The position numbers were made by a program, and so were the translations under genes. 64,000 bases of DNA from Hydrogenovibrio thermophilus (GTDB lineage: Bacteria > Pseudomonadota > Gammaproteobacteria > Thiomicrospirales > Thiomicrospiraceae). Location: contig NZ_CP035033.1 in the NCBI RefSeq assembly GCF_004028275.1, forward strand, positions 496,001-560,000, read 5' to 3'. Positions 18,847 to 49,282 of this stretch are shown here, one piece after another (the first letter of the stretch is position 1; each line of letters begins with the position of its first letter). A model generated the notes under the pieces. That model searched no databases. It worked only from the letters and a program-made list of their open reading frames with translations, and had not been told where the DNA came from.

Positions 18847-18923
18847 GGCTACATAGCTCAGCTGGTTAGAGCACATCACTCATAATGATGGGGTCCCAGG
18901 TTCAAATCCCGGTGTAGCCACCA
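18847..18923 (+). tRNA. tRNA-Met elongator (anticodon CAT), island insertion site
   Basis: A 77-nt cloverleaf with encoded CCA. GGCTACA pairs with TGTAGCC; the anticodon loop CTCATAA gives CAT. The paired G1-C72 marks an elongator rather than initiator tRNA, and the sequence closely follows elongator tRNA-Met. Its last 15 bases are repeated at 49268-49282, so the gene is the integration target and remains intact. Confidence 0.96.
18909..18923 (+). repeat. attL core of the genomic island
   Basis: The 15-mer CCGGTGTAGCCACCA, the 3' end of tRNA-Met, is identical to 49268-49282. Flanking bases diverge at once on both sides. A direct repeat of a tRNA 3' end with an adjacent tyrosine recombinase is the standard signature of site-specific integration. 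Confidence 0.9.
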
Positions 18924-19144: not shown

Positions 19145-20392
19145 ATGTTAACAGTCTTACAAATAAAGAACTTCAAGCCAGAGAGTATTGTCTATCGAAA
19201 ATCAGATATGAACGGACTTTACCTGACTATTTATCCTAATGGGCATAAGAAATGGGATTTTCGCTACACCTCACCTGCCTCAAATAAAAGACGAACATTT
19301 AGAGTTGGTGACCAAGCTTTTATGAGCTTATCGGACGCTCGTTCTGAAGTGATACGCTTGCACCAGATGATCAGCCAAGGAATTGATCCGGTTGATCAGA
19401 AGCGGGAAGTCGAGTTTCAAAATCAACAACAATTACAACGTCAACAGAAGTTCGATAACCGTATAAAGTTCTTTCAACTTTATCATGAGTTTGCAGGCTT
19501 TTGTACAACTTCATTTGGTGGGGCAGGGGCTAGATGGACGGATTATACAAGGCAAAAACACGATGAGAGGTTTGTTAACCATGTTTTACCTGAGATTGGA
19601 GAGTTACCAGTAGAGGAGGTGACAGAAAATCATATTGTTTCTGTTCTGTTGGCTATCCAAGAGCGAGGGACTTTGTCGATCCGGGACAAAGTCAAACAGG
19701 TGCTTAATGCTTTGTTTCAATATGCTTTTGATAAACAATACTGCAACAAAAATGTGATGAAGTTTTTGCCAGAATCAATATTTGTTAAATCGGCAGTTAA
19801 TCATTTCAAACATCTCACCACGGATAAAGAATTAGGCCTCTTCTTGAGGCAGCTGTCAAACGTCCACGCTTCTTTTGAGATTTTGTCAGCAATTTATTTG
19901 GGCATTATGTTTTTTTTACGACCAGGTGAACTGGTTGGTATGGGATGGGACGAGGTGGACTTCACTGAAGGTGTTGTCACTGTATTTTCATCGAAAATAA
20001 AAAAGGAACATATTGTTCCTATGTCTAATCAGGCAAAGCAGTTATTAATGAGTTTAAATCATTTTACTGGCCATTCTCCTTACGTGTTTTTGTCTTCATA
20101 CGGTAGTGGACGTTATCGTCATATTAGCCGTGATAGCCTTGGTAATACTTTAAGGCGAAGTGGTATCGATTATATCCAGCCACATGGATTCAGGCATACA
20201 GCAAGTACCATGTTAAATGAGATGGGGTTTGATTCGGATGTGATTGAGCTTCAATTAAGTCATAAAATTTCTGGGGTTAGGGGAGTTTATAATAAAGCTC
20301 AAAGGTTAAAAGACCGAAAGGCTTTAATGCAGGCATGGTCGGATCATTTAGAGCAGTTAGGGATGAGTGGTTCAGTTTTGTCGGGTTTGTAA
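19145..20392 (+). CDS. int: Tyrosine recombinase / island integrase (P4 type)
   Basis: Catalyses integration and excision at tRNA-Met. The 415-residue protein has an N-terminal arm-binding DUF4102-like domain (KNFKPESIVYRKSDMNGLYL), a core-binding domain (about 85-190) and a catalytic domain with Arg in FFLRPGELVGM, a Lys region (KIKKEHIVPM), HGFRHTAST (HxxR), a second His in QLSHKI and the nucleophile Tyr in GVYNKAQRL. ATG 19145 is preferred because AAGGAG lies 7 bp upstream; a longer GTG frame would translate through the arm sites. Confidence 0.95.
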   Translation: MLTVLQIKNFKPESIVYRKSDMNGLYLTIYPNGHKKWDFRYTSPASNKRRTFRVGDQAFMSLSDARSEVIRLHQMISQGIDPVDQKREVEFQNQQQLQRQQKFDNRIKFFQLYHEFAGFCTTSFGGAGARWTDYTRQKHDERFVNHVLPEIGELPVEEVTENHIVSVLLAIQERGTLSIRDKVKQVLNALFQYAFDKQYCNKNVMKFLPESIFVKSAVNHFKHLTTDKELGLFLRQLSNVHASFEILSAIYLGIMFFLRPGELVGMGWDEVDFTEGVVTVFSSKIKKEHIVPMSNQAKQLLMSLNHFTGHSPYVFLSSYGSGRYRHISRDSLGNTLRRSGIDYIQPHGFRHTASTMLNEMGFDSDVIELQLSHKISGVRGVYNKAQRLKDRKALMQAWSDHLEQLGMSGSVLSGL

Positions 20393-20463: not shown

Positions 20464-20748
20464 TCATTGGATAATGGGTCGACGATTACTCTCAATTACT
20501 TGGTTCATCCAAGCAATAATTTCACTTTCTATCCAACGAGAGCTGGTACTGGAAATTTTGATTGGAAGAGGAAAGGTGGAGTCATACAACTCATGTCTTG
20601 GATCCATGCGGCGATAAATTGCACTTCTTGATATAGAAAGGAGTTTGGTCACTTCTTTAAGTGTCAGAAAACGATTTGATATGTGCAGAGCCTTTTCTTG
20701 GTCAGGTAGTGATGTACTTGGGAGCATTTTTTTATCCTCATTGTTCAA
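20464..20748 (-). CDS. AlpA-family helix-turn-helix regulator / excisionase-like protein
   Basis: A 94-residue DNA-binding protein. The central FLTLKEVTKLLSISRSAIYRRM is an AlpA/MerR-like winged helix-turn-helix, followed by FPLPIKIS and RWIESEIIAWM, the usual AlpA C-terminal pattern. AlpA proteins of P4-like elements activate int or act in excision. It converges with int and has an 18-bp perfect palindrome directly upstream (20758-20775), a likely operator. Confidence 0.88.
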   Translation of the reverse strand: MNNEDKKMLPSTSLPDQEKALHISNRFLTLKEVTKLLSISRSAIYRRMDPRHELYDSTFPLPIKISSTSSRWIESEIIAWMNQVIESNRRPIIQ

Positions 20749-20812: not shown

Positions 20813-21616
20813 TTAATGGCGTTTTAGGTGTGAAAATTCTTCAGCCAATTGCCACAGAGCTCTATTTAAGCGCACGTCTTCCGTAACCGAATGAATGGCT
20901 CGGGTTTTGGTCGAGCGACCAGTAGAGGATCGACCAATCAATCCACCTTTCATAAAGTTTTCTTGAACCCGATTGAATGTTTTCCAAAGGCTGGGCTCTT
21001 TATCTTCCACCCGTCGGGCTTGAAGTAAGGATTCAGCGTCAATTGGACTTTGATTTTCCCAGTCTTCACCGTAACGTAATGCTAAGGATGCTCTTGCAAA
21101 CAACACAGATTCTTCTTTAGAGACCAGCGTTGATTGGAACGACTCAACTGAATTCGATATATGCGGAATTTCATTGGCAAGCGATAAAGAACCTTCAATG
21201 ATATTTTCCACAATGTTTTTGCCGTGCTTGACACGAATGCCACCGAGATCACCAGCGGGCGTCACCATGCCGTTAGAACACACCAAACGAAACAGCCCTA
21301 AATCGAGTTGATAAGCCGCACTTCGATTATGTGAATTGGTAAGAACCAACTCACTGATAGAATCTCCGACTTTAATCTGGCGATCTGGGTCTTGTCTAAA
21401 GCGCACCATATGGCGAGCTAATAATTGCTTGCTTGGGTCACGTGTTTTAGTTTGTTGGGCTCTTACGGGATACCAGCCTTCTTCTTGCAGTGCATTTACC
21501 ACATCAATGGTTGGTACAAAACCATATCGATCAGATACTTCGTGGGCGGGCGCATCAGCAAAGATAGCTGGTGCGGTTTTATGCAGTTGTTGCGAGGTTA
21601 AGATGTTCATAGCCAT
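20813..21616 (-). CDS. DUF932 (phage/plasmid-like) protein
   Basis: A 267-residue protein of the DUF932 family, common on plasmids and islands. Recognised by the N-terminal DRYGFVPTIDVVNALQEEGW, the middle SGLRCSNGM-type segment (FRLVCSNGMVTP) and IRVKHGKNIVENIIEG. Biochemical role unknown. Probably co-transcribed with the upstream gene 21634-22545 (17-bp gap); such genes often travel with YqaJ exonucleases, as here. Confidence 0.8.
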   Translation of the reverse strand: MAMNILTSQQLHKTAPAIFADAPAHEVSDRYGFVPTIDVVNALQEEGWYPVRAQQTKTRDPSKQLLARHMVRFRQDPDRQIKVGDSISELVLTNSHNRSAAYQLDLGLFRLVCSNGMVTPAGDLGGIRVKHGKNIVENIIEGSLSLANEIPHISNSVESFQSTLVSKEESVLFARASLALRYGEDWENQSPIDAESLLQARRVEDKEPSLWKTFNRVQENFMKGGLIGRSSTGRSTKTRAIHSVTEDVRLNRALWQLAEEFSHLKRH

Positions 21617-21633: not shown

Positions 21634-22545
21634 TTAATGCGTGGTTGTTGGGGTTAATTGCTCTAAACTCTGCTCTAAGGCCGAATTTAAACTTTGAGGG
21701 TGAGTGGTCGTACCGGTTTGCGGTGTTTGCGTGGAATCTGGATAGAATTCATCCAATATGGAATCAACCGTGTCGGAGTCTTCTTCAAAGAAACCGTTGC
21801 TAAAACCTTTGACCGCTGCCGCATCAAGCGCATTCTGTAAAAATCCCATCTCCATTCGTTGTTGGTGAATGTTTTTAGCTTGGGTAAGAGTTTGTTCTAA
21901 GCTCATGCCTTCACGTAACGTCAGATCAACGTAATAGATTGGATGCCCAAAGCTTTGACGGGTCGATTTGGCTCTTACCCTTAAAGCTAGGGGCAAACAT
22001 GAAAGTCGGTTTTGAGAGATAGCTTGAAAATAACTGAGTCGAGAGGCGAGGGTGCGAATGCTGTTGAAACCCGATGTTCGGAATGTAAAGCTGCCAATTG
22101 GGTCCGATTGCGCTTCTCCCTCCGGTGTAATGAGTACGTTTAAACGGCCATAGGGTTTGCATTGCCCCTGAGCAAATTCACAAACATCTGCTCCGGGACA
22201 GGCTTGGGTTTCAATCGTATTGTTATGCCGTCTTTGACACGTTTCGCCGTTGCCAACACAGATTGGCCGAGCGGTTTGTCTGTCAAACAAGCAGTAATCG
22301 GCTCTTAGGTTCAAGTCCGGTTGGTTAAATACCATTTGTACTGGAATTTCTCGAAGCTTTTGATTCGGTTGCTCTCTAAGCTGTTTGTCTAACGGGTGTT
22401 TCTTCCAACCTTCTCGTGTTTGTATTTGAGTGGTAATCGTGAATTGGTCATCTTTTTGAGGCAGGCGTTTACCGTCTTTTTCGACGACTTGCCCAATCGA
22501 AATGCGGCCAATCACTGGTGGGGTCAAAACGAGTCCTTTTAACAT
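21634..22545 (-). CDS. Mobile-element protein with Cys cluster; possible recombination directionality factor family
   Basis: A 303-residue protein of the type often labelled 'hydrolase or metal-binding protein' in integrative elements. A Cys cluster lies in its middle (CVGNGETC, QACPGADVCEFAQGQC), which could bind metal. The surrounding folds (GRLNVLITPEG, SFTFRTSGFNSIRTLASRL) resemble phage Gp3-like directionality factors in my reading, but this is not certain. The C-terminal 50 residues are acidic and Ser/Thr-rich, probably disordered. No catalytic motif is recognised. Confidence 0.55.
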   Translation of the reverse strand: MLKGLVLTPPVIGRISIGQVVEKDGKRLPQKDDQFTITTQIQTREGWKKHPLDKQLREQPNQKLREIPVQMVFNQPDLNLRADYCLFDRQTARPICVGNGETCQRRHNNTIETQACPGADVCEFAQGQCKPYGRLNVLITPEGEAQSDPIGSFTFRTSGFNSIRTLASRLSYFQAISQNRLSCLPLALRVRAKSTRQSFGHPIYYVDLTLREGMSLEQTLTQAKNIHQQRMEMGFLQNALDAAAVKGFSNGFFEEDSDTVDSILDEFYPDSTQTPQTGTTTHPQSLNSALEQSLEQLTPTTTH

Positions 22546-22652: not shown

Positions 22653-23654
22653 TCAGTCGGGTTGGATTAAGAACCGCCTTGAGCCCGGTTTTTCCTTTAA
22701 ATAGGCTTCATGCAGTTTAGGCTGTTCCTCTTTAAAGCGCTTGGCATCAAAAGTGGTCGATGACTTAGACAGTTTCCAAGAAATTCGGCCATCATTAAAT
22801 TCCGCCATGCTGTAGTCACCCATGCGTTCTTGTAGTTGGTGCTTAATCAGCGTTTCTTGTTTAGAAAGCTCCGAACTCTGTGCCTTTAGGCGCATTAATT
22901 CGGAAAATAGACTGTCGGCTTGGTGATCATGTTTTAGGTCTAATGTTTTATGGTTGTCGTTTGGATAAAGCTGTCTTAAAGCACGAGCAGAAGACGCACT
23001 GGCATCAGCCGGTGGCGGAGTGTTGGTTTTTACACGTTGCCAAAATGCTTGTTCCAGTTTGATTAAGCGTTCGATCAACTCATCATCCCGTTCAATTCGA
23101 AAGATTTCCAATTTTTGACCAGCAATCAATACAGCGACATCCGCCGCTTGTTGGCCCGTCACAGCAAGTTGGTGCATAACCTGGAGTTGAATGTAATCAG
23201 GCACGCCATTTCCCCAAAGTTTCGCCGAGTGCATTCCGGCTGTCTTACACTCTAGGATTTGAACGTCATCGTTCCCGACAATTTCCCGATCCAAGTTTGC
23301 CAGCATCCAAGGGTGGTCTTGATGTTGCAGGATGGCATTCACCTTTCGAACTTTTCGACCAGTACGTTTTGCATAGTGTTCGGCGACAATGGGTTCAAGA
23401 ATCGTCCCCCATACTAAAGGAGTGTCTTCGTTCATATCGGGTTGGGAGGGAGTGATTCTCCCTGTCTTCTCCATCCATAGCTCTAGTTGCGATTTAAACG
23501 GGTTTAATCCTGCTGCTGTTGCTGCATCACTCGACCCAATGCCTTTGTTTCGATATTGAAGCCATAGGTCGGTATTAAGGTTTTGCGTGCTGATCATGCG
23601 TTTTGCTTGAGCGTGACGGCGAGAAGGGGGTGGTGTTTGAGATAGTGCTGTCAT
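22653..23654 (-). CDS. YqaJ-family viral recombinase / exonuclease
   Basis: A 333-residue protein with a lambda-exonuclease-like (PD-D/ExK) domain in its first two-thirds. Signatures: WLQYRNKGIGSSDAATAAGLNPF, LEPIVAEHY, the metal-binding Asp in MLANLDREI and the ECKTAG motif (ExK) followed by YIQLQVMHQLAVTG. It digests double-stranded ends for single-strand-annealing recombination in the family; no Bet/RecT partner was recognised. The C-terminal 130 residues contain a coiled-coil segment. Confidence 0.88.
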   Translation of the reverse strand: MTALSQTPPPSRRHAQAKRMISTQNLNTDLWLQYRNKGIGSSDAATAAGLNPFKSQLELWMEKTGRITPSQPDMNEDTPLVWGTILEPIVAEHYAKRTGRKVRKVNAILQHQDHPWMLANLDREIVGNDDVQILECKTAGMHSAKLWGNGVPDYIQLQVMHQLAVTGQQAADVAVLIAGQKLEIFRIERDDELIERLIKLEQAFWQRVKTNTPPPADASASSARALRQLYPNDNHKTLDLKHDHQADSLFSELMRLKAQSSELSKQETLIKHQLQERMGDYSMAEFNDGRISWKLSKSSTTFDAKRFKEEQPKLHEAYLKEKPGSRRFLIQPD

Positions 23655-24309: not shown

Positions 24310-25053
24310 ATGGAAGAGAAAAATAAAATAGATATTTCACAATCAATGAAGCTGATGTCCAATAAAAATTTAGAAGTTACGTTGGATCCAAGTTATGCCG
24401 GTCATGCTGTTAAAACATCTTTTCAAAGAGGGCAAAGCCCCAAGCTTTATCAAGGATTTTTAATCAAATCTTATTTAGCACAGCTGATTAAGTTAATCTA
24501 TGCCCACACTTGGAAATACCCAAGAACATTAGCTGTAAGGTTTGAGCTTTTATATCCGAAGGAGTATTCCAAAATGCCTACAAATGAGCACATTACGCAA
24601 TTCTTTAAAAGCTTGAATTATCGAATCGATAAGCAACAAGAGACTAAGCGAAAGGCAGGAACGCGAGTTCATCAAACAGATGTTAATTATTGTTGGGTAA
24701 AAGAGCAGGATAGCAGCGAACATCCTCATTACCATGTGTTGTTATTGCTTAATAAAGATTCTTACCAAGGGCTGGGTAATTATTCAGATCCAGTAAGTCT
24801 AATGGGGTTGATGAGAAACTCTTGGGCCGCAGCGCTTAGTTTAACTTATGAGCAGACGAAAGGAATCGTCAATGCATCTGAACATAAAAATAATAAAAGG
24901 ATTAAGCCAGTCCATTATGTAAATCGCGGTTCAGAAGACTATCAAGCACAATTGGATGAATTGATTTATAGGGGCAGTTATTTATGCAAACTCGAAACCA
25001 AGAGGTTCCTTAATAACCGTTCTAGGAATTTTGGCAGTAGCTTAGTGAATTAG
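24310..25053 (+). CDS. Inovirus Gp2-like / YagK-YfjJ family replication protein
   Basis: A 247-residue protein resembling the inovirus-type Gp2 family in cryptic prophages and islands. It carries an HxH pair in HPHYHVLLLLNK, like the HUH metal site of rolling-circle initiators, and WVKEQDSSEHPHYHV is typical of the family. The expected catalytic Tyr is unclear (candidates near VHYVNRGSEDYQAQ and RGSYLCK). It may initiate replication of the excised island; this is inference. The 255-bp upstream gap is AT-rich with no other gene seen. Confidence 0.7.
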   Translation: MEEKNKIDISQSMKLMSNKNLEVTLDPSYAGHAVKTSFQRGQSPKLYQGFLIKSYLAQLIKLIYAHTWKYPRTLAVRFELLYPKEYSKMPTNEHITQFFKSLNYRIDKQQETKRKAGTRVHQTDVNYCWVKEQDSSEHPHYHVLLLLNKDSYQGLGNYSDPVSLMGLMRNSWAAALSLTYEQTKGIVNASEHKNNKRIKPVHYVNRGSEDYQAQLDELIYRGSYLCKLETKRFLNNRSRNFGSSLVN

Positions 25054-25802: not shown

Positions 25803-26408
25803 CTATTCCTGCGCAAAGTATTCCGTTATGGCTTGTTCCGTATAGTCTGGGGAATACATTTCAGGACGGTAAAGAGGCCCAACTCCGGTGAGAGTGGTTT
25901 CAGAATAGTAATTATTTGATGCGACACTGAATTTAATGATTGGACGATATAAAATTTCTTTAATTTTAGGGGCATCGGAAGTTTGATTGACCGCACTTTC
26001 TGCTGCAAGGCTTGCAAGTGCTCCAGCTCCTAACGCCATTCCTAAGCCCGCAACCTCTCCGCTTGCTACACTACCATTTTTGTACTTTACATAGGGTTCA
26101 CGAATATAGTCAACTAATGTGACCGTAACAGGGGTTCCACTGCTGATCAGTTTAATATTTTTGCTAATGAGGGTTTCTTTTATTTGTTTTTGAATATCAG
26201 ACCAGCCCAATATTTTTTGCATTTCATCTGTGGCATCGGATTTGAATACTAAATTAATTTTAGAGTATTTGATTTTATCGAAGTTGGTTGATTCGACTAT
26301 GATCCCAGCTACTCGCTGACCATTGTTTTCTGGTTTCATTATTGGAGGTGTTGAGCAGCCTGAGAGAAAGAATGTAAAGGTTGTTAAAACAGACAATAAA
26401 ATTTTCAT
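25803..26408 (-). CDS. Lipoprotein of unknown function
   Basis: A 201-residue protein with a clear lipoprotein signal (FFLSGCSTP, Cys about 18) and a Gly/Ala-rich hydrophobic stretch (about 117-140, VAGLGMALGAGALASLAAE) that may insert in a membrane. I do not recognise a family. GGAGATAA precedes the ATG. Convergent with 25117-25740, with only 62 bp between the two stops. Confidence 0.6.
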   Translation of the reverse strand: MKILLSVLTTFTFFLSGCSTPPIMKPENNGQRVAGIIVESTNFDKIKYSKINLVFKSDATDEMQKILGWSDIQKQIKETLISKNIKLISSGTPVTVTLVDYIREPYVKYKNGSVASGEVAGLGMALGAGALASLAAESAVNQTSDAPKIKEILYRPIIKFSVASNNYYSETTLTGVGPLYRPEMYSPDYTEQAITEYFAQE

Positions 26409-26744
26409 GCGCTAGTTATCTCCAATACCATATCAAAATAAAAAATGTCATTTATTAGCTAAGTATAAAGTCTAGTTTTTTAATTTTCTAGCGAGTCTTT
26501 AAAAAACGTATAAACTCGCTATGGCGAATTTCGTTTTTTTCTTTTTGCAGCTTTAATTTTTGAAGTTATTCGGAGGGAGAAAGCGACATTAAGGTGTTTT
26601 TGTATAAAAAACTAAAAAAATTGCTTTGATAGATATGATTTTTTAGTTGTTTTTAAAAAAACAATAAGAAATGTCGTTTCTTGTGATTGCTAAAGTTTAA
26701 TAGGGTGTTTGGTTATCAAGTAGAGGCTGTAGGGAAGGAATTAT
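26409..26744. other. AT-rich intergenic region with hairpins
   Basis: 336 bp without a credible gene. It holds a perfect 8-bp inverted repeat, TAGCGAGT/ACTCGCTA (26489-26496 and 26514-26521), and a looser pair GAAAGCGACATT (26579-26590) / AATGTCGTTTC further on. Reverse-strand transcripts from the restriction operon end here, so terminators or a small RNA are possible; I see no standard T-run terminator. Confidence 0.4.
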
Positions 26745-28319
26745 TTAAACTATTGATTGCTCATAGCCCTGTTTAAATTCAAATTTATAGGGGGGTTGAT
26801 TAAGTAATGTTTCTGGTGTGTTGACTGTCCACTTTACAAACCTTGAGGTTTTTCCTTCGGATTCACACTTTATTCCAAGTTTGCTTAAAACAGGTTGAGC
26901 TTGTTTAAATTCTGAACCTATTTTTCGTTCAGATTTATTTATCCAGTCAATATCTATTTCTTTTGCTAGCTCTTCGAGCTCGTTTTTCCAGTCTTTTAGA
27001 GAATAGGATTTTGATTGATTAAGGTTATTTTTCGACCATTTATATAGCAAGAATGCTGAATCGTTATCTTCAAGGTGATGAAACTGACTTTCAATCGACC
27101 ATTTTTTGAAAGATTCATAGAATGAAGTAGGTTGTGGGTACAGCTTGTCGAGCGTTAATCCAATTTGGATAAACTTTTCTAGTTGAGGAAAGCTATTGTC
27201 CGAAAGTGTAGGCTTTGGTAGTGGAGAGTATCTGTCTAAAGCCCGGTGGATAAAGCTAGAAATTTCTATCAGCTCATTATGAGCGCTATTAAATGGTTGT
27301 TTTTCATGCTCAGTAAGCTTGTCCACTTTGGTGTGTAGCACTTCAAGTGTGACCGTTTTATTACGCAGACGTTGGGAACGAATCTGACTTTCATTAGCAC
27401 TAATTAAAATAGGTCGACTGATAGAGAACTTATTTTGCTTTGATTTACCAAACTGTGTTAATGACCCAGAAACGCTTAATATTTCGTAAATTCTTGCTTC
27501 TTGTTTAGGGTTCAATTGTTCAATATTTTGATAGCTGAGAAGGTATTCTTCTAATGCGTCTTGATTAATTTCATCTGGTTTTCTTGGAAAGTCTTTTAAT
27601 GGTGAAATAGAAGGATCAATTAAGTTTTTTATTATTTTTTGAGTTTCTTCGATATTAATTTCATTTGTACCGACAAGCTCCAAGAGAATGTTGTTTTCTG
27701 AAATTACAGTGTTGATTAACCAGCTAAGTAGAATAGTTGTATCATTTTCTGAAAAAGGTAATTTTCTTAGCAAGGTTAACAGGTTATTGATAGAGGGGAC
27801 ATATTTTTCGTTTAGTTCTTGCGGCAGAGAAGTAAGCTTATAAGGTGTGGGATTGTCATCCCATAATGCACTGTTCGAATTGTAAATATAGGCATTTGAA
27901 ACAAGATTTGAAGAAAGGTTGGTGCCGTATGATGGGTGGTTAAAGTATGTAATATTCCCAAACAGATCGCGTGATATTCTTATTGGTAAATTATCGTTTA
28001 GATTGTCTGGGTACCAGTGGTTAGGATCGCCTTTAAGAATGCTGATTGCTTTCTTGATTGTTGTGTTGGTAAAAATTGTTTTCAGATAGTTGAAGCCATA
28101 GCTTGTAAGTTTGTCAAAAAAATCAGTATCGTCTAAAAAGGAAATGTTGTTTTCATAAACAACATAACGTGTGTTAAGTCTGTTTTTAAGCAAACCAAAT
28201 TTTGGTAAACCGTTAGCATTTAAAAACATGTCTGTAGATTGTGTTAACTCATTTAATAAAAAATGAAGCTGCTGCTCAGATTTAGTAGGTTTAGGGGGAT
28301 TAGCTATTGGAATATTCAT
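26745..28319 (-). CDS. Degenerate phage primase/helicase-like protein lacking Walker A
   Basis: A 524-residue protein that follows, from end to end, the layout of phage/ICE primase-type ATPases. Matching landmarks in order: LLSWLINTVI (about 198), a P-loop position reading LVGTNEINIEETQ (214-226) where the family has GxxGxGKS, LIDPSISPLKDFPR (233-246), SRPILISANES (301-311, compare RP[IV][IL]LNGIE), RLRNKTVTLEVL (317-328, compare DLxDRxxxxxL), and a C-terminal winged-helix-like region (KIGSEFKQAQPVLSKLGI). The Lys/Ser of Walker A are gone, so it cannot be a normal ATPase. It starts 2 bp after res and ends the operon. The homology is my own alignment by eye. Confidence 0.5.
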   Translation of the reverse strand: MNIPIANPPKPTKSEQQLHFLLNELTQSTDMFLNANGLPKFGLLKNRLNTRYVVYENNISFLDDTDFFDKLTSYGFNYLKTIFTNTTIKKAISILKGDPNHWYPDNLNDNLPIRISRDLFGNITYFNHPSYGTNLSSNLVSNAYIYNSNSALWDDNPTPYKLTSLPQELNEKYVPSINNLLTLLRKLPFSENDTTILLSWLINTVISENNILLELVGTNEINIEETQKIIKNLIDPSISPLKDFPRKPDEINQDALEEYLLSYQNIEQLNPKQEARIYEILSVSGSLTQFGKSKQNKFSISRPILISANESQIRSQRLRNKTVTLEVLHTKVDKLTEHEKQPFNSAHNELIEISSFIHRALDRYSPLPKPTLSDNSFPQLEKFIQIGLTLDKLYPQPTSFYESFKKWSIESQFHHLEDNDSAFLLYKWSKNNLNQSKSYSLKDWKNELEELAKEIDIDWINKSERKIGSEFKQAQPVLSKLGIKCESEGKTSRFVKWTVNTPETLLNQPPYKFEFKQGYEQSIV

Positions 28320-28321
28320 AT

Positions 28322-31300
28322 TTAAGCGATCCGATCAGTCAAATCGTTAATGGATGAAGCTTTAATAAAATCAACATCGTTATCAAGTGCTTCAAAATGT
28401 GCCGTGCCGCATCTAATTTTATCATTTTCTGTTTGCCGTAAATCTTCGGGAAGTAGACTGCTTTTGGTTTCAACGACAAAATATAGTCTTTCAGTACCGT
28501 CCTTTTCAATCAATACCGCCCAGTCGGGGTTATAAGAACCCAGCGGTGTGTCGATTTTGAACCAACTTGGTAGTTTGGTATAAAGCTTTACATCATCGTT
28601 TTGTTCAAGCCCGGTTGCAAAGGCTGATTCCGTATTTGAGTCATAAACAATATGGCTGTAAACGCTTTTATCGACCGCCATCATGTTTTGCTCTAAATAG
28701 CCCTTCAGTTCTTCTTCTATAAACAGTTCCTGGGCATAGAAGCTCTGATCACCGATTTTCTGATACTTAATACCATCCACCAGCGCGTGCATCTTCTTGC
28801 GCTGAATAATTTCCAGTGTTTTCTCGATAAACTTTTGCGGGTTCTTGGCAAGGTCTTTCAGCTTGCCGCTTTCGATCAAGATATTAGCAAGCGTTTTACG
28901 GGTGAGTTGTGTTTTGTTTTGTAAATAAGTCAGCACATCCGGCAGTGTTTGGTAGTGCGCATTATAGGTTTGAGTGTTTTCTTGAATCTGATCGACGCCC
29001 ACGCCTTCGTAATGATCCATCGTAACGTTTGCCAACCCCGTTTTAAACTTAGGTTTAGCAATAACCATATTGACCTTCATTTCGTGAACGCAGTCTGCAA
29101 TCAATTTTGTCAGATCAAAATTAACCTGGTACACCGTTTTGTATTTAATTCGCTCCCAAAGTGCTTTAAAGTCATCACCCATAATCACTTCTTTTTTGGG
29201 TGTTGCCAAGTGAGTTTTGCTGGCATCTTTAACATCCAAACCACCAGCCACTTTTTTCAGAATGCGTTCTATTTGCATTTTGTAAGGCGCGAAGGCTTCC
29301 GGCAAGGTAAGGGTATCGTGTTTTAATGCAATTTTTAAACTGTCTTGCACCTTACCGTTTTTATCAATCAATTGTTCAGATTTGAGATGGTTCCAGAGTT
29401 TTTCTGAATCTTCCGTTCCCAAGTAAACGACGTCATTTCCGTCTCTCTGGATAACTAGGTTAGCGAAGGCATGATCTTCCACTACGCCAAATTTAATGCC
29501 ATCTTCATCTTCAATCTCTTTTTGAAGCGTAGCCGTAAAATCATTGTAAGATTCGTTTGCGATGACCGTTAATGTATTGATTGAAAAACCAGTGTCTGTC
29601 ACTCGGTTACCAGTACTGTCAACGGCTAAACGTAAACCACGGCCAATTTCCTGGCGTTTTTTAATGGTAGAAGCCGTTTCGTTTAGCGTGCAAATTTGGA
29701 AGACATTTGGATTATCCCAACCCTCACGTAAAGCAGAGTGTGAAAAGATAAAACGCAGTGGCGTTTTCATATCCAGCAAGCGTTCTTTATCTTTCATAAT
29801 CAAGTCATAGGCGGATTCGTCTGCCAAAGTTTTACCACTGGTATCTTTTACAATGCCCTTATTGTCAGCTGCAAAGTACCCATCGTGAATTTTAGATACT
29901 TCCACATCTAGATTGATTTCATTAAACAATGATTGATATTTAGGGTGCTTGGCCAGCCGTAAAAATTCTTCTTCAAAGATTTGTCCATAAGCGCCCAGGC
30001 CTGGTTGATTTTGCTCATCATAAACTCGGTAGTTCGCTACCTTATCAATAAAAAATAAACTCAAGACTTTAATGCCTTTCGGATTCAGTACCATTTCACG
30101 TTCAAGGTGCTTTTCAATGGTTTTGGCAATTTGCAGACGTTTTAACGCCAAATCATCTACACCACCAATGCTTTGGCCGAGTTGTAAGATGTCTTCTTGG
30201 GAAGTGAAATCAATCCACTCATTGCCCGGTACAGCTGAAATATCCTTGATAATGTAACCTTCGTAAGGATCACGACCTTTGGTTAATTCGAATAGATCAG
30301 CACCTTGTTTTAACCATTTTTTATCGCGTTTAATCGTGCCTTTCGACGTTAGCGCATCAAATTCCACCTGAGCCTCACATACCCCGTTTTTATTACGCAC
30401 ATTCAGCAATTTGATATAGGCATTATTATTGTCGTCTTCCGGTAGCACTGGCAATACGGCAATCTGTTTAACCAATTTGGCATTGTAAGCATCCACCGCA
30501 TCCAATTTATAAATCGGTAAATGCTTATCTCGATGAGTTGCCGAATAACGGAGAGTAAAGAGAGGGTTTAACGATTTAATTGCCTCGGCTGATTTGGCCG
30601 TGGTATCGACTGATTGAGGTTCATCAATAATTACGACTGGTTTGGTTTTAGCGATCAGGTCAATCGGGCGCATACCCTCTAACCGATCATTCACTCGGTG
30701 AATGATATTGGCCTTGGTTTCTTTGTTTGGGTCGGTAAAGCTTTTACGGAAGGCATCAATATTGATGACCATAATTTGAATGTGACTGGATTCAGCAAAG
30801 TTCCGAACCTGTTCTAGGTTGTTGGAGTCATAAACAAATGTTTCTGCATTCACGCCTTTGTAAATTTGAGATAAATGGTCTTTGGTGATTTCAATCGATT
30901 TTTTCACGCCTTCTTTAATGGCAATAGAAGGCACAACTATTATGAATTTTGTCATGCCATAAGCTTGGTTCAGTTCGTAAATGGAGCGCAAATATACATA
31001 AGTTTTACCCGTACCAGTTTCCATTTCCACTGTATAGTTCAAATCATCTTTATTAAGGGTTTTGGCTGGTTTTAAACCATGTTTCAGCTGAACTCTAACG
31101 AGGTTGTCTAATAATTCTTCTTCGCCCAAAACCAAGCGATTAGCGGTGCCCAAGTCGGCTTCATTGCCATAATCCATCGTCATCATGCTTTCAGCACCTT
31201 TCTGAACGGGAATATTTAACTGTGGCATGGTAAAAGGCGCATAACAACTTTCCTGGCCTTCAAACAAGCTAACAACTGCATCCCAAGCTAATTTTTGGTG

Positions 31301-31330
31301 AGGTAAATTTTGGTTAAACTGTAGTTTCAT
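28322..31330 (-). CDS. res: Type III restriction endonuclease subunit Res
   Basis: The ATP-dependent translocase and nuclease subunit of a type III restriction system; it cuts unmodified DNA together with Mod. The 1002-residue protein has a superfamily 2 helicase core: Walker A METGTGKTYVYL (about 103-114), Walker B IIDEPQSV (about 235-242), YSATHRDK, and motif VI region QEIGRGLRL. The C-terminus has a PD-ExK nuclease (NPDWAVLIEKDG, VVETKSS, about 940-965). Its start overlaps the end of the upstream TPR/PIN gene by 17 bp, so translation is coupled. One CCAGGCCTGG lies inside (29995-30004), rare for the island. Confidence 0.93.
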   Translation of the reverse strand: MKLQFNQNLPHQKLAWDAVVSLFEGQESCYAPFTMPQLNIPVQKGAESMMTMDYGNEADLGTANRLVLGEEELLDNLVRVQLKHGLKPAKTLNKDDLNYTVEMETGTGKTYVYLRSIYELNQAYGMTKFIIVVPSIAIKEGVKKSIEITKDHLSQIYKGVNAETFVYDSNNLEQVRNFAESSHIQIMVINIDAFRKSFTDPNKETKANIIHRVNDRLEGMRPIDLIAKTKPVVIIDEPQSVDTTAKSAEAIKSLNPLFTLRYSATHRDKHLPIYKLDAVDAYNAKLVKQIAVLPVLPEDDNNNAYIKLLNVRNKNGVCEAQVEFDALTSKGTIKRDKKWLKQGADLFELTKGRDPYEGYIIKDISAVPGNEWIDFTSQEDILQLGQSIGGVDDLALKRLQIAKTIEKHLEREMVLNPKGIKVLSLFFIDKVANYRVYDEQNQPGLGAYGQIFEEEFLRLAKHPKYQSLFNEINLDVEVSKIHDGYFAADNKGIVKDTSGKTLADESAYDLIMKDKERLLDMKTPLRFIFSHSALREGWDNPNVFQICTLNETASTIKKRQEIGRGLRLAVDSTGNRVTDTGFSINTLTVIANESYNDFTATLQKEIEDEDGIKFGVVEDHAFANLVIQRDGNDVVYLGTEDSEKLWNHLKSEQLIDKNGKVQDSLKIALKHDTLTLPEAFAPYKMQIERILKKVAGGLDVKDASKTHLATPKKEVIMGDDFKALWERIKYKTVYQVNFDLTKLIADCVHEMKVNMVIAKPKFKTGLANVTMDHYEGVGVDQIQENTQTYNAHYQTLPDVLTYLQNKTQLTRKTLANILIESGKLKDLAKNPQKFIEKTLEIIQRKKMHALVDGIKYQKIGDQSFYAQELFIEEELKGYLEQNMMAVDKSVYSHIVYDSNTESAFATGLEQNDDVKLYTKLPSWFKIDTPLGSYNPDWAVLIEKDGTERLYFVVETKSSLLPEDLRQTENDKIRCGTAHFEALDNDVDFIKASSINDLTDRIA

Positions 31331-34300
31331 TCTGATTTCCAGGCTCTAAAAATTCAAATAAGTCTTCGATGTTTACTGCAATGAAATCTCTTTTGGGAGG
31401 AGCAAGCATTGGAGCAATAAATTTGTAATTCTTATCATAATACTCAACTAGAAAACCTAACCATTGGTAGCTGTTGGCAATTTTAAGAATGATTCGTAAA
31501 ATTCTGCTATTTTTAATTTTGTTTTGAAGATTAGGCTCAGTTGCTACTAGTCTGGATATGAAAAATCTGACGTTGACTTGGTCAAACAGATCTCTATAAC
31601 CTTTTTGATGGAGAGATTCGTAGAATTCAATTTCGTTGTCTTCAAATTTTTTCTTAACATCAATCAGGGCAAGTGAATTACTCGATAGTGTTGGAGCTAA
31701 ATTTGTAGATTCAGTGATTATCTGAAATATTCTGTCTTCGGATATAACTTGAAAATCGTTGTTATATGCATAAGAGAGAGCCCTGTATTCCAAAATGCCC
31801 ATTAATGGAACAAACATTTCAAATGATTCAGAAAACTCCAAAATTTCTTCTCTGTCATCAATTATTCTGCTTTGGAATGACTTATGAACCTTTCTCGCTA
31901 AAGATAGAAGCCTTATTTTATTTTTTTCAATATCTGATTTTGTGTGGATGTCGCGGAAAATTGATTCTCCATCACTAAACATCGTCATTATTTCATCAGT
32001 AACGCTTAATTCTCTGATAAATGAAGATAGCCAATCAATTGTTGTTTGTTGAATATAGACATCGTTTCTAGTCAAAATATTATCTAGCTCACCAATATGG
32101 TCTAAAAAGATTATTGAACTAAGAGTAATGATTTTCTTTTTATCGACTATTCGACATCTTCCAGCGTTAAAGCTTATGTTTGGATTTTCCAATATGTGCG
32201 GAATCAGGCCAAAATATTTTTTATACTCGCCAACCAGTTGATGAAATGAAATGTTGCCACCAGAACTGTAGATATCAAATTTATTAGCTTGGCTTTCAGC
32301 TTGTTGAATTAGCAGAGGTTTAATATCAGCAATAGGGTCTGATTTAGATACATCTAATCTAATAAAATAATCACTTTGCATCTCGTATACAAATAAATTA
32401 CAGATTTGGTGGAATAATGAGTTTGTTTCATATTCATCACCAAGAATTTCAAGCTCAAACTCTTCTCTTGGTAACAATTCAATATTGAAGGATTCATCTA
32501 TTTGTTCATATTGATTAAGGCTTAAAAAAAGCTGAGCTTCCTTTTTTAAAACTATATTAGATGGTGTGTCGATTCCAATGTTTGTTTTATTGATAATCGT
32601 ATAGAAATAAATGGAAGCCAGAATGTGCTTTGTATCGTCATCAATTTCAGATATAGGAGCAGACAATAATTGCTTGTTTATATATTTGAAACCTTCGTTG
32701 ATAGATTTCTCAACTACAATCATAAAAAATGACATCTCTACTATTTGTCTAATAGTTAATTTGTCATAGTGCTCTTCCAAGAAGGCTCGAAATTCAGAGT
32801 CTTGCTGAACATTTATTCTGCTGCTGCTTTGCTCATTATTGATTAAAAAGTATCTGAGACTGCATTGATATAAGGTGTTACTTGCAATGTTTAACTTGAA
32901 ACTGGTTTGCGTACTTTCACTTTGCCAAGCAATAGAAAATTGATTGTAAGCTTTGCTTAATTTTCCAAATTTAAGGTATATGTTGCCAACCAAAATATGA
33001 TTTAAAGACGGGAACGACTGAGAAATAAAATTTTCAAAGTCTGAGAATAAGAGCTCTTTGTCATCAAGGCAAATCTGTAACACCTTTTCCAAGATGAATG
33101 GCACGTCTTTTAGCTCACTTCCAATAATTAAACATTCTTTTGATTGATGGTTTAAAGCCAGAAGGTTTAGTGAGATGTCAGAAATTAATTCTTTTTGAGT
33201 AGTCTTCGTCTGAATCTTAATGATTTTTTTTATTTGTTTTTTGGATAACGATAAATTTTTTCTCTGTTCAATTTCAAGAAATGTCAGATAATCAATTTCA
33301 GACATTCCTTTCCGTTGTTCTGCTTCCTTGTAAATTTTTTTTAGGTCAGAAAGCTTATGGTTGAGTAGCGTATTTGCATAAATATTAAACGCCTTAGGAT
33401 CATCCAAAAAGATTTTATTTGATTCCAAAAAGTCTTTAACCAAAGAAGGAGCTGTTTGTGAAATCCTATCTAAATATTGGATTAGTAATTCGGGTTCGTT
33501 TTGTTCAATCAACCGGTTTTCAATAACGGTATGTTCTAACTCTTCTTTGTTGGTATTAAAGTGAAAATGAATAAAATTAACAATGTCTAAATCATTGCTT
33601 TGGTATTTAGGGTACTCGTTAAAAAAAGACTCAATATCATTGAAATATAAGCAGTGAAGTAAATGATTAGTTATGATGTCTCGATAATCTCTTTCAAAAT
33701 AAGATAAGTTTTTTTGAATTTTATCAAAATAAATCAGAGTGTTAGAGAAGGCTGTTTTTTGTGGATTAATATGATTTAAGTAACAATCAATTTCACGAAA
33801 TGAATAAAATTTCGATCTTTCAAATTGTTCAAAAAAGTTTAATTCATCATTGTTAAGGTTCTCAAAATAATTCTTTGCTATTTCAAAATGCTCGGCGAAT
33901 CTGTTCTGGTTGTAGAGGTTTTGATAAATTAAAGCTCCAAGGTGACAGAGCTTTTTGCTGAGCTGGTCTTTTTCAAAAAATTCGTTTTCATACGCCTGTT
34001 CAAATATAGCCTGGGCTTTTCCATAGTTTCCAGAATTCAAATAGAATAATATCTCAAAATAATCATCTTCAATTTCAGTGTCTGCAAACTCGTTTTTTAT
34101 TTTTTCAATACATAAATTGAAATCTTCTCTATTCGCTTGTAACGAAAGCAAGCTAGCCTTCATTTCAAAAAACTTACCATCCAAAAAGTCTTTGAAATGA
34201 TTCTCAAGGTAAGCTAGTAACTCAGCAACTTTATCAAACTGTTTAAGTTGAAAGTTAATTTCAGTTTCTAACACCAATAGATGGTATTTTGCCCCCGTGT

Positions 34301-34481
34301 TTTGGCTATGTTCTTTTTTAGCCTCTTTCAGAGACTCAATTGCGCCTTCTATTGAACCATCGAAAAAGTTACTTTTAATTGTGGATATCAACGTTTTTAC
34401 TGTTGTAGGCAGAACAATATTCTGTTGATTGATACTGCCCAAATTAAAAAGGCTCGTTATTCTATTGAGCATAGCGTGCAT
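31314..34481 (-). CDS. Large TPR protein with C-terminal PIN-like domain, inserted in type III R-M operon
   Basis: A 1055-residue helical protein. The first 550-600 residues read as TPR-like helical repeats (EGAIESLKEAKKEHSQ, KYHLLVLETEINFQLKQF, YLKFGKLSKAYNQFSIAW). The C-terminal part (about 780-960) resembles a PIN nuclease: IITLSSIIFLDHIGELDNI followed much later by ALSYAYNNDFQVISEDRIF, where D/E residues fall at PIN-like places. The start overlaps the small membrane gene stop as TAATG, and the end overlaps res, so it is an integral operon member. Classical type III systems have only mod and res; this gene may add an RNase effector or sensor. Family not recognised with certainty. Confidence 0.5.
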   Translation of the reverse strand: MHAMLNRITSLFNLGSINQQNIVLPTTVKTLISTIKSNFFDGSIEGAIESLKEAKKEHSQNTGAKYHLLVLETEINFQLKQFDKVAELLAYLENHFKDFLDGKFFEMKASLLSLQANREDFNLCIEKIKNEFADTEIEDDYFEILFYLNSGNYGKAQAIFEQAYENEFFEKDQLSKKLCHLGALIYQNLYNQNRFAEHFEIAKNYFENLNNDELNFFEQFERSKFYSFREIDCYLNHINPQKTAFSNTLIYFDKIQKNLSYFERDYRDIITNHLLHCLYFNDIESFFNEYPKYQSNDLDIVNFIHFHFNTNKEELEHTVIENRLIEQNEPELLIQYLDRISQTAPSLVKDFLESNKIFLDDPKAFNIYANTLLNHKLSDLKKIYKEAEQRKGMSEIDYLTFLEIEQRKNLSLSKKQIKKIIKIQTKTTQKELISDISLNLLALNHQSKECLIIGSELKDVPFILEKVLQICLDDKELLFSDFENFISQSFPSLNHILVGNIYLKFGKLSKAYNQFSIAWQSESTQTSFKLNIASNTLYQCSLRYFLINNEQSSSRINVQQDSEFRAFLEEHYDKLTIRQIVEMSFFMIVVEKSINEGFKYINKQLLSAPISEIDDDTKHILASIYFYTIINKTNIGIDTPSNIVLKKEAQLFLSLNQYEQIDESFNIELLPREEFELEILGDEYETNSLFHQICNLFVYEMQSDYFIRLDVSKSDPIADIKPLLIQQAESQANKFDIYSSGGNISFHQLVGEYKKYFGLIPHILENPNISFNAGRCRIVDKKKIITLSSIIFLDHIGELDNILTRNDVYIQQTTIDWLSSFIRELSVTDEIMTMFSDGESIFRDIHTKSDIEKNKIRLLSLARKVHKSFQSRIIDDREEILEFSESFEMFVPLMGILEYRALSYAYNNDFQVISEDRIFQIITESTNLAPTLSSNSLALIDVKKKFEDNEIEFYESLHQKGYRDLFDQVNVRFFISRLVATEPNLQNKIKNSRILRIILKIANSYQWLGFLVEYYDKNYKFIAPMLAPPKRDFIAVNIEDLFEFLEPGNQNETTV

Positions 34482-34680: not shown

Positions 34681-36558
34681 TTAAATGCTCAAAACATCTT
34701 CAATGCCAGCTTGTTTTAGGCGTTGGATGGCGTTGGTTTTTGTGATGTCGTCTTTGAAACTGGTATCTCGGAAAACAACTCTTAGTACTGGGTTTTCTGG
34801 TGTGCTCAGGTCGGCAATGGCTTGCACAGTTTCTAGGGTGATGTTTTCATCAAAACAGGCAATTAAGGAACCGAATGCCACATTCCAAGCTTGATGATCA
34901 GCAACCTTAACCTCTTCAATGGGTAGGGTTAGTGGTAGGCCATATTTGATTAATACTTCAAACAGCAGATCTTGGCTGGTTCTACCATCGACAATATTAT
35001 CAACGGCATTAAGAAGGTCGGTATCTAGGTCATCTACATTAGGTTGCCATTTTTTGATATTGGAAGTGTCGAGTTTAAAGACCTTAAACCCTAAATCTGC
35101 TTGGGTTTCTGGGTGTTCTTCCTTGATTTTCTTTGCCGCACGGCGAATGCGTTCTTTGCCGATTTCGGCGATGGTGGCGTAACCCGCTTTTCTGGCTTCG
35201 GAGTTTACGGGCGTAGGCTCTGGAATTTGTACTGATATAAGCTTGCGATTACCTTTATCTTCTGTATTTAATTCCATAATAGCGTGTGCTGATGTTGCAG
35301 AGCCAGAAAAAAAATCTAAATAAATTCCTTCCTTTTTATAGTCTTCATTGAAGGCAAAAGCAAAGAAGTTCTTTAACAATGATTTTGGTTTAGGAAATCC
35401 AAAAACTGGCATTTCAAATAATGATGCAATATCTGAAGTACCTTCTTGAGTAAAGGGGCCATTCATCAGTGATGTAGGTTTCCCTTTTCTTTCATTTCCA
35501 TATTCATCTTTAAGGTATTGTTTGGCTCGAACGCTGAATGTGCCATCAGGTTTTTTATTAAAAACCACTTCGTCATCTTCAATAGCTTTTAAAAGACGTT
35601 CTTTTGACCAGACCCATTGTTTAGTAGGCTTAATAGCTATTCCTTGGTGTTCAATTTCATACTGCAGGTTTGGTCGGTCATCCATTGATGTAGTCATCAG
35701 TGGTTGAGTAAAAAAACCCCCTCTTTGAGGAAATTTAGAATCTTGTTTGTTGTATGCTTTTTTTCCATCTTCATCTAAGGGAGATTCAAGGTTTAATAAT
35801 TGATTTTTTGAATAACATAAGATGTATTCATGAACACTGATAAACCCTTTTGTTTTTGCGCCAGCCCCATATTTATTTTTCCATGAGATTTCCTCAATAA
35901 AATTTTCCTCCCCAAAAATCTCATCACAGATTTTTCTTAGGTTATGCACTTCATTGTCATCAATGGAGATAAAAATCACGCCATCGTCTTTAAGTAAATT
36001 ACGAGCCAGTTTTAGGCGGGGGTACATCATATTTAGCCAGTTGGAATGATACCGGCCAGCGGAATCTGCGTTGGTGGTTAGGGGATTACCTTCTTCATCT
36101 TTTTGGCCTGTTAAGCGCTGGTAATTGGCTAGGTTGTCTTTAAAGTCGTCTTTGTATACGAAATCCTTGCCGGTGTTGTAAGGCGGGTCGATATAGATCA
36201 TTTTCACCTTGCCAAAGTAGCTTTTTTGCAAGAGCTTTAAAACTTCAAGGTTGTCGCCTTCGATATAGAGGTTTTCGGTGTTGTCCCAATTCACTGATTC
36301 TTCTGGTGCTGGGCGTAGCGTTCCCAAAGTAGGCGTGGTGGCGATGCGCTTGGCTTGTTCTTTACCTGACCAAGTAAATTGATAACGCTCATTGGATTCA
36401 TCAATATTTTCACCCAACTCAACTTTTAAAGCATCAAAGTCAATTTTGCCTTCACTAAACACATTTGGAAACAGTGTCTTGAGTTGTTCAATATTGTGTT
36501 CGGTTAAGTTCATGCTTTGACCTGTGAGTTGCTGTAAGTCGTTTTGGGTATCCGCCAT
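34681..36558 (-). CDS. mod: Type III DNA methyltransferase subunit Mod (N6-adenine)
   Basis: Recognises the target and methylates adenine on one strand. The 625-residue protein has beta-class motif order: catalytic IYIDPPYNTGKDF (DPPY at 124-127) before the SAM-binding FFSGSATSAHA (about 420). The central variable part between them carries the target recognition domain. AGGGAACAAC precedes the ATG. First gene of a five-gene reverse-strand operon (mod, membrane protein, TPR/PIN, res, primase-like). No simple repeat tract for phase variation was seen in it. Confidence 0.94.
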   Translation of the reverse strand: MADTQNDLQQLTGQSMNLTEHNIEQLKTLFPNVFSEGKIDFDALKVELGENIDESNERYQFTWSGKEQAKRIATTPTLGTLRPAPEESVNWDNTENLYIEGDNLEVLKLLQKSYFGKVKMIYIDPPYNTGKDFVYKDDFKDNLANYQRLTGQKDEEGNPLTTNADSAGRYHSNWLNMMYPRLKLARNLLKDDGVIFISIDDNEVHNLRKICDEIFGEENFIEEISWKNKYGAGAKTKGFISVHEYILCYSKNQLLNLESPLDEDGKKAYNKQDSKFPQRGGFFTQPLMTTSMDDRPNLQYEIEHQGIAIKPTKQWVWSKERLLKAIEDDEVVFNKKPDGTFSVRAKQYLKDEYGNERKGKPTSLMNGPFTQEGTSDIASLFEMPVFGFPKPKSLLKNFFAFAFNEDYKKEGIYLDFFSGSATSAHAIMELNTEDKGNRKLISVQIPEPTPVNSEARKAGYATIAEIGKERIRRAAKKIKEEHPETQADLGFKVFKLDTSNIKKWQPNVDDLDTDLLNAVDNIVDGRTSQDLLFEVLIKYGLPLTLPIEEVKVADHQAWNVAFGSLIACFDENITLETVQAIADLSTPENPVLRVVFRDTSFKDDITKTNAIQRLKQAGIEDVLSI

Positions 36559-38044: not shown

Positions 38045-39055
38045 CTATTGTCCTCGGCCAACAATTTCTTGAGCGTGTTTATAAATTTTTTCCCGCCAGT
38101 GTTTAGGTTTGACGACTTCTACTTTGCTTCCAAACCCCATTAGCCACCAGAGTGTTTGAGAGTCATCAGTTGTTTTGGCTTTTAAGACAAAATGGTTTTC
38201 ATCTAATTTGGAAATGGTTTGTTCATTATTAATGGGCGTTTCCCTTAAATGCCATGCTAATGACTTATCGACGATGAGCTCAAGGTCAATTAATTCGTTA
38301 TTTTTAGGGTAATCAAAGGCACCAGAGTCGACATATTCATCCAAAGTACAAAAACGGTGATCTTTACCAGGCCTGGTGCTTTCTTCTAATGTTTGGATAC
38401 GGTGTAATGCAAGTTGGCGAATCCCTCTATCTTCATCATCAATACAGTCTTCTCTAATTGCGACAAGATAAGTAACCGCTTGCCTGACGACCAAGCCAAT
38501 TGGTTGCACTGTAAAGCTTTCCAATTCCTCTTTAGTTCGACTCAGATAAGTTACTTTTATGTTTTTATCTTCTAAAAGGTAATCTGTAATTGCTTGCCAA
38601 ATTTCGAGTTTAACATTTGCAGGTTTTAAAGCTTTACCATTAGAAATTGCTCTGACTTTGTTTTGCCAGCTTGAGTATCGATTGGTGTTTTGCGCATTTA
38701 ATACTTGCTTAGCATTTTTGAATTGCCGACCAAGCTTGTCCATAACAATTTTGGGCAACACGTTCTTTAAATGGTCTTCTGCTAACACCCATGCTAAAGC
38801 AGAAGCGTTATCTAACTCGGGAAGCCTGCTCTCATAAGTATCAAGAAAAGACCATTTATAGGGTTTCTCAGAATCATCTTTTCTGATTGGAAAAGCCACA
38901 CTCAATCTTTCTAGGTCACGTTGTATTTTTCTTTCTGAAACGTCAAAGCCATCTTCTTCTAGTGTCTGATATAGAGTTGAGGTACTTTTGTAAGCTGGTT
39001 CAATGGGGATTAGTTGAAGTAAAGCGATTTGTCTCAATAGGGTGTCTTGTTTCAT
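38045..39055 (-). CDS. WYL-domain transcriptional regulator
   Basis: A 336-residue regulator with an N-terminal winged HTH (ALLQLIPIEPAYKSTSTLYQTL ... VSERKIQRDLERLS), a central WYL ligand-binding domain (about 150-235, KVTYLSRTKEELESFTVQPIGLV, YLVAIREDCIDDEDRGIRQLALHRI) and a WCX C-terminal domain. Members such as BrxR and CapW repress defence operons and respond to nucleotide signals. It is divergent from the dynamin operon, and two palindromes lie in the shared 266-bp region. One CCAGGCCTGG lies inside (38367-38376). Confidence 0.88.
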   Translation of the reverse strand: MKQDTLLRQIALLQLIPIEPAYKSTSTLYQTLEEDGFDVSERKIQRDLERLSVAFPIRKDDSEKPYKWSFLDTYESRLPELDNASALAWVLAEDHLKNVLPKIVMDKLGRQFKNAKQVLNAQNTNRYSSWQNKVRAISNGKALKPANVKLEIWQAITDYLLEDKNIKVTYLSRTKEELESFTVQPIGLVVRQAVTYLVAIREDCIDDEDRGIRQLALHRIQTLEESTRPGKDHRFCTLDEYVDSGAFDYPKNNELIDLELIVDKSLAWHLRETPINNEQTISKLDENHFVLKAKTTDDSQTLWWLMGFGSKVEVVKPKHWREKIYKHAQEIVGRGQ

Positions 39056-40434: not shown

Positions 40435-40444
40435 AGGATGACGA

Positions 40445-47209: not shown

Positions 47210-47210
47210 A

Positions 47211-49267: not shown

Positions 49268-49282
49268 CCGGTGTAGCCACCA
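49268..49282 (+). repeat. attR core of the genomic island
   Basis: CCGGTGTAGCCACCA, identical to the 3' end of tRNA-Met (18909-18923). No tRNA body precedes it, so this is the remnant left by integration. Confidence 0.9.

Follow-up and report, generated by a model that had tools for sequence, protein, structure and literature searches.

A catalytically dead primase-helicase relative accompanies HUH Rep proteins in gammaproteobacterial genomic islands

The gene that closes a type III restriction-modification (R-M) run in Hydrogenovibrio thermophilus raises the question of what a phage-type replication ATPase without an ATP-binding loop might be doing in such a place. Within the window (the whole 64,000-nucleotide stretch of DNA analyzed here), mod, a gene for a 1,055-residue protein, res and the gene in question form a single same-strand run (Table 1). 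The last of these encodes P0001 (524 amino acids, ATG start), beginning 2 bp past the res stop codon, and its frame is unbroken. The gene for the 1,055-residue protein overlaps res, and its TPR scores stayed below the Pfam threshold.

Table 1. Coordinates of the island features in the window
Feature	Position	Strand	Remarks
Attachment repeat, left	18909..18923	+	CCGGTGTAGCCACCA; 3' end of tRNA-Met (18847-18923)
Tyrosine integrase	19145..20392	+	Pfam Phage_integrase, 1e-20
AlpA regulator	20464..20727	-	Pfam Phage_AlpA, 2.1e-12
DUF932 protein, island core	20813..21616	-	Pfam, 3.1e-36
Gp3-like (recombination directionality factor-like), island core	21634..22545	-	Pfam, 4.8e-44
YqaJ exonuclease, island core	22653..23654	-	Pfam, 2.2e-43
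HUH Rep, convergent partner gene	24310..25053	+	PF11726 YagK_YfjJ_C / inovirus Gp2-like, Pfam 7.8e-41; HPHYH and YLCK motifs
Foldback element, candidate origin or binding site	26584..26676	.	CGACATT ... AATGTCG, 93 bp, inner A+T-rich hairpin
Pseudo-ATPase P0001	26745..28319	-	Primase-helicase relative, ATPase-dead; no Walker A, Walker-B-like motif, sensor Asn or Arg finger
C-terminal domain of P0001, residues 397-524, predicted winged helix	26748..27131	-	Co-linear with C-terminus of canonical ATPases; AF2 pLDDT 73
res, type III restriction subunit, cargo	28322..31330	-	Pfam ResIII and RE_endonuc
1,055-aa protein, cargo	31314..34481	-	In the mod/res interval; no Pfam match above cutoff, weak TPR-like scores only
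mod, N6/N4 DNA methylase, cargo	34681..36558	-	Pfam, 4.6e-29
WYL regulator	38045..39055	-	Homologue in G008 adjoins the pseudo-ATPase gene, directly upstream
Attachment repeat, right	49268..49282	+	Exact 15-bp copy of left repeat

As a single sequence, P0001 matched no family in Pfam or PHROGs and returned nothing from plasmids and phages (tblastn) or from IMG/VR. Two homologues were found in its own bacterial family, with 32% (G008) and 28% (G061) identity, and a profile of P0001 with these two nearest homologues retrieved Walker-A-bearing ATPases from eight other genomes of the class sample, at E values down to 1e-19. In the reverse direction, a separately built profile from nine proteins with an intact Walker A matched P0001 at 2.1e-19, and a profile-versus-profile comparison with hhalign gave a probability of 99.1 and an E value of 1.9e-18 over 411 columns, with the homology spanning the N-terminal domain, the core and the C-terminal domain, i.e., the full length. 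A first-pass annotation had read a descent from a phage primase/helicase out of a series of landmarks and had suggested profile-profile searching as the check; since the profile matches are reciprocal and the two profiles align strongly, those landmarks reflect homology rather than chance. By these comparisons, P0001 is a true descendant of the phage/island primase-helicase ATPases (D5-like type). Canonical members of that group (GEQGSGKST ... RPVILNGI ... DLxDR) are co-linear with P0001 in all three parts, and their Toprim-fused relatives correspond to the PHROG 2249-type DNA primases, whereas P0001 has neither a primase/Toprim domain nor the catalytic motifs. Against the PDB, the three-protein profile found no matches, and the profile of the nine canonical proteins hit hardly anything but the P-loop segments of ABC transporters.

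Structure modeling was informative for the C-terminal domain only. Its nearest folds are winged helices, among them the iteron-binding domain of RepE, at Z scores (6.5 to 6.8) below the level of kinship; Foldseek returned no match for this domain at an E value of ≤0.001, and an RK-G---KQA motif is conserved there in all three closest members. The full-length AF2 model (pLDDT 45) is too poor for any claim about the fold of the core, and the Z scores of 4.2 to 4.8 that residues 15 to 113 of this model gave against D5/E5 lie within background. Likewise, a relationship to sigma factors was discarded, the top matches of the full-length model being helical look-alikes.

The loss of catalytic residues extends well beyond the P-loop. 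At the P-loop position, P0001 reads LLELVGTNEINIEETQKII (GTNEINIEET), with no GKS/GKT, so that the Walker A motif (GxxGxGKS/T) is absent, and the motifs VLELIGEQGSAKST, SYNNLS, LNGI and DLLERT of canonical members correspond to LLELVGTNEINIEE, SYQNIE, LISANE and RLRNKT, the last three standing where SxDNLS, LNGI and DLxDR are expected. Besides Walker A, P0001 has thus lost its Walker-B-like D/N, the sensor Asn within RPxxxNGI and the Arg finger of DLxDR, while the stretch C-terminal to the core in canonical proteins has been retained. The first-pass annotation, which had called the protein a pseudo-ATPase from the P-loop alone, was therefore right, with three further motifs now added to the list. 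It had also asked whether homologues share the Walker A loss or whether close ones with a normal motif betray a recent mutation. Both of the closest homologues (G008 and G061) lack the whole set of motifs, with replacements that differ from those of P0001 and from each other; the loss of Walker A is therefore old.

A search around a match in another gammaproteobacterial genus yielded further relatives, and a nine-member profile matched in 32 of the 275 genomes of a second gammaproteobacterial family, canonical ATPases included. On a tree made without the motif columns, 19 proteins from the two gammaproteobacterial families (with L087, L123 and L124 as near-copies) form one clade, at a support of 100/99, in which the Thiomicrospiraceae members have long branches. 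The P-loop is absent from 16 of the 19, 13 of these in one family and three in the other; only three more distant members (L088, L089 and L133) keep GKST, all of them together with the Asp of the Walker-B-like motif. A single recent mutation is not what happened, since the clade is old and the tree requires its P-loop state to have changed two or more times. The GKST-bearing proteins (L088:9244-10923, L089:9065-10765 and L133:9030-10676) would be natural counterparts of the dead ones and, going by their motifs, are possibly active. One other genus, sampled through 25 genomes centered on G474, yielded no clade members, a result that is uninformative.

Between close P-loop-less pairs, dN/dS was 0.12 to 0.27, and it was 0.03 to 0.37 within the dead core alone, all pairs coming from the second bacterial family since the homologues of the window lineage are too divergent for this measure. 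In the window lineage itself, intact frames of 524 to 566 amino acids persist in three islands at only 28 to 32% identity. As judged from substitution rates in close relatives, then, the P-loop-less lineage is kept under purifying selection, in agreement with the earlier view of an intact gene, 2 bp from res, that is not simply decaying.

That the gene is part of a restriction operon, as the first-pass annotation had it, was not supported by comparison of the islands. An HUH Rep (PF11726 type) is encoded in the same island as the clade member in 19 of 19 cases (13 called by the main profile and six by a second HUH profile, with an H-x-H motif in all, some HUH2-type Reps lying 4 to 5 kb off and one lacking a Pfam match), compared with none of 16 canonical-ATPase loci, no canonical copies having been found in such islands. 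R-M genes, on the other hand, directly adjoin only two of the 19 clade members, those of the window (type III) and of G061 (type I). Type III adjacency is seen in the window only; G008 carries type III genes elsewhere in its island, and R-M genes likewise occupy other places in the G803 island. DUF932 and YqaJ genes are usual at the clade loci and an integrase is frequent, while the adjoining cargo changes: WYL in G008, a HerA/Zot-like ATPase with type I R-M in G061, AbiE in L086 and L089, a MerR-type regulator in the L087-like islands and, next to some members, no recognized defense gene at all. The gene thus probably belongs to the replication module of the island rather than to the restriction system, and the type III R-M genes of the window genome appear to be cargo inserted between the WYL and pseudo-ATPase genes, since these two genes adjoin in G008 and are parted by R-M genes in the window.

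The window island measures approximately 30.4 kb, has a GC content of 0.33 to 0.45 (approximately 0.51 outside) and ends in a second match to its attachment repeat, for which 100 shuffles gave no equivalent. Its integrase, AlpA, YqaJ, inovirus Gp2-like protein, RNA-gene repeat and defense cargo are features of CP4-57/I55-type islands, which it resembles on the evidence of its genes. Islands of the I55/VPI-1 type are moved by jumbo phages and commonly carry a RadC gene, according to their description (PMC12595487), which also lists a tyrosine integrase, AlpA, YqaJ, an inovirus Gp2-like HUH protein, dynamin and R-M cargo and direct repeats from the 3' end of an RNA gene (PMC12595487). The repeats there derive from tmRNA rather than tRNA-Met, and the sections consulted name no ATPase or pseudo-ATPase in the core (PMC12595487), unlike the island studied here. 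In the window, AlpA adjoins the integrase. The E. coli cryptic prophage CP4-57 (intA-yfjH-alpA-yfjI-yfjJ) is similar in its integrase, AlpA and an HUH gene by a replication-type gene, with yfjJ, the namesake of PF11726, adjoining yfjI. The latter, however, encodes a DUF3987 protein, and hhalign detected no kinship between DUF3987 (YfjI type) and the P0001 family.

Several further genes were noted along the way. Two lipoprotein-like genes without Pfam matches, 25117-25740 (+) and 25803-26408 (-), occupy the interval between HUH Rep and pseudo-ATPase genes in the window, and no relatives of them were found in the other islands compared. At 39322-47627 of the window, two dynamin-family genes are followed by a 197-amino-acid gene, a HerA-like (DUF87) ATPase gene and two small genes (+), which looks like a further defense cassette. 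In G061, the gene of the Zot/HerA-like ATPase (L013:12374-13642), whose P-loop is intact, is situated between those of the pseudo-ATPase and the HUH Rep. One IMG/VR contig, 3300048442 (L143:1-4342), encodes the C-terminus of a clade member, followed by DUF932, what looks like an ERF-like gene and the beginning of YqaJ; by its gene content, this would be the island module again, here among viral data, which is only suggestive of a link to phage transfer.

Directly behind the pseudo-ATPase gene of the window lies a foldback element in which the two arms are separated by 79 nucleotides. Paired GACATT/AATGTC elements of 83 to 93 bp are found 5 to 69 nucleotides behind the gene in six islands. Not all of these are independent, as they comprise the islands of the window, G008 and G061 along with a single L087-like group; the distance is 43 nucleotides in G008, 5 in G061 and approximately 40 in the L087-type islands. 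At a spacing of 60 to 90 nucleotides, such pairs occur seven times in 861 kb of loci, compared with 2.35 times in shuffles, and six of the seven stand no more than 70 nucleotides behind a clade gene. The arms vary by lineage and yet pair (CGACATT/AATGTCG, AGACATT/AATGTCT and GTGACGT/ACGTCAC). They are short, and most elements, taken singly, are no better than shuffles on arm length alone. Folded as single-stranded DNA, most of the elements are stable, and those of the window (z = -4.2) and G008 (z = -5.2) were equaled by none of 200 shuffles, whereas the fold is weak or absent in L088, L126 and L133 and, in the others, weaker than in those two. In G061, the element stays with the pseudo-ATPase gene even though the HerA/Zot-like gene parts the latter from the HUH gene. 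No element was present near Rep in four Thiomicrospiraceae HUH islands without the pseudo-ATPase gene (L039, L040, L042 and L046), and a fifth (L041) has one GACATT/AATGTC pair, more than 1 kb beyond Rep. Judging from its layout, the element fits either an origin hairpin or an inverted pair of binding sites. An intrinsic terminator was rejected, given arms 60 to 90 nucleotides apart and no terminator-like match at that place (the nearest being at 26512-26531), as was a known RNA, no Rfam match exceeding the threshold.

A precedent for such an arrangement exists in the self-loading initiator helicases of other islands, SaPI Rep and SCCmec Cch2, which are likewise helicase-type island proteins (PMC7581432). 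In SaPI Rep helicases, the C-terminal domain recognizes an origin directly downstream of the gene (PMC7581432), and the predicted winged-helix C-terminus of P0001 and the candidate element behind its gene may work in a similar way. SaPI Rep and Cch2 do need Walker A (K252 in Cch2) (PMC7581432), however, while P0001 has none and goes with an HUH nickase.

Together, these observations lead us to a most likely reading, held with moderate confidence at about an even chance of being correct, in which P0001 binds DNA without ATP and partners the HUH Rep at the foldback element. On this reading, a primase-helicase ATPase ancestor lost its entire ATPase site while keeping the scaffold and the predicted winged-helix C-terminal domain; the resulting protein would bind DNA, specifically the paired site behind its own gene, and may hold or expose that site as an origin. 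The HUH Rep would then contact the pseudo-ATPase and nick at the exposed site, unwinding being left to a host helicase.

The same parts (a DNA-binding-type C-terminus, a paired site beside the gene and a Rep nearby) could also make up a brake. By binding to the origin or to the HUH Rep, or by assembling together with an active relative, the dead helicase would hold the island inactive until induction or repress neighboring genes. Dead relatives of ATPases often serve as regulators, and a small helix-turn-helix gene stands beside the pseudo-ATPase gene in part of the islands. We nevertheless consider such a role unlikely, as no direct sign of repression was seen and both G000 and G008 already have a WYL regulator gene upstream, in the same direction.

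Less probable again is the role proposed in the first-pass annotation, an antiphage decoy or sensor whose targets would be phage replication helicases or DNA ends and which would work together with the restriction genes. What invites this idea is a phage-type replication protein without catalytic motifs in an island with much defense-type cargo (type III R-M and dynamins), and the gene is missing, as cargo would be, from some related islands: five sister islands (L039 to L042 and L046) have the same core and HUH Rep without it, from which we conclude that it is not indispensable to such islands. Two of the five contain DUF3987 (L040:13824-15320 and L046:6349-8106, the P-loop-like motif of the latter, GERKT, being slightly off). 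The defense neighbors vary between islands, however, and the HUH Rep is constant. Moreover, there is no obvious plentiful target to mimic, because 62 genomes of its own bacterial family yielded no canonical ATPase of this protein family and a typed consensus of the ATPase core matched a single phage, accounting for two of 50,697 records, and the decoy has no supporting evidence of its own.

It is very improbable that P0001 is an ATPase with a noncanonical nucleotide site and no true pseudo-enzyme. Departures from the usual motifs are tolerated in some P-loop families, P0001 has presumably preserved the fold and three clade members retain GKST, but the Lys, the Ser/Thr, the Walker-B-like Asp/Asn, the sensor Asn and the Arg finger are jointly missing from the proteins of the window, G008 and G061, with differing replacements. 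Least credible of all is a remnant on its way out, which the loss of every catalytic motif and the long Thiomicrospiraceae branches might suggest but which is at odds with the intact, divergent frames in three islands and the low dN/dS of P-loop-less pairs elsewhere in the clade.

Both the ancestral family and this type of island are already known, but we found no description of the ATPase-dead HUH-island clade or its element in the open-access papers searched, and the family is in neither Pfam nor PHROGs. When mobile islands carry dead copies of phage replication enzymes, these tend to be dismissed as decay; here, a P-loop-less lineage has been selectively kept, each of its members shares an island with a nicking Rep, and several adjoin a candidate origin. 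That the gene follows restriction genes is an accident of this locus, which warns against guilt by association in defense islands. More generally, and with somewhat less assurance than for P0001 itself, we suggest that D5-type helicases without ATP hydrolysis may have arisen at least twice in gammaproteobacterial islands as origin-recognition or hairpin-holding partners of an HUH nickase, each with its own foldback origin. CP4-57/I55-like islands, many of whose core genes lack an assigned function, thereby gain a new part and a testable candidate origin.
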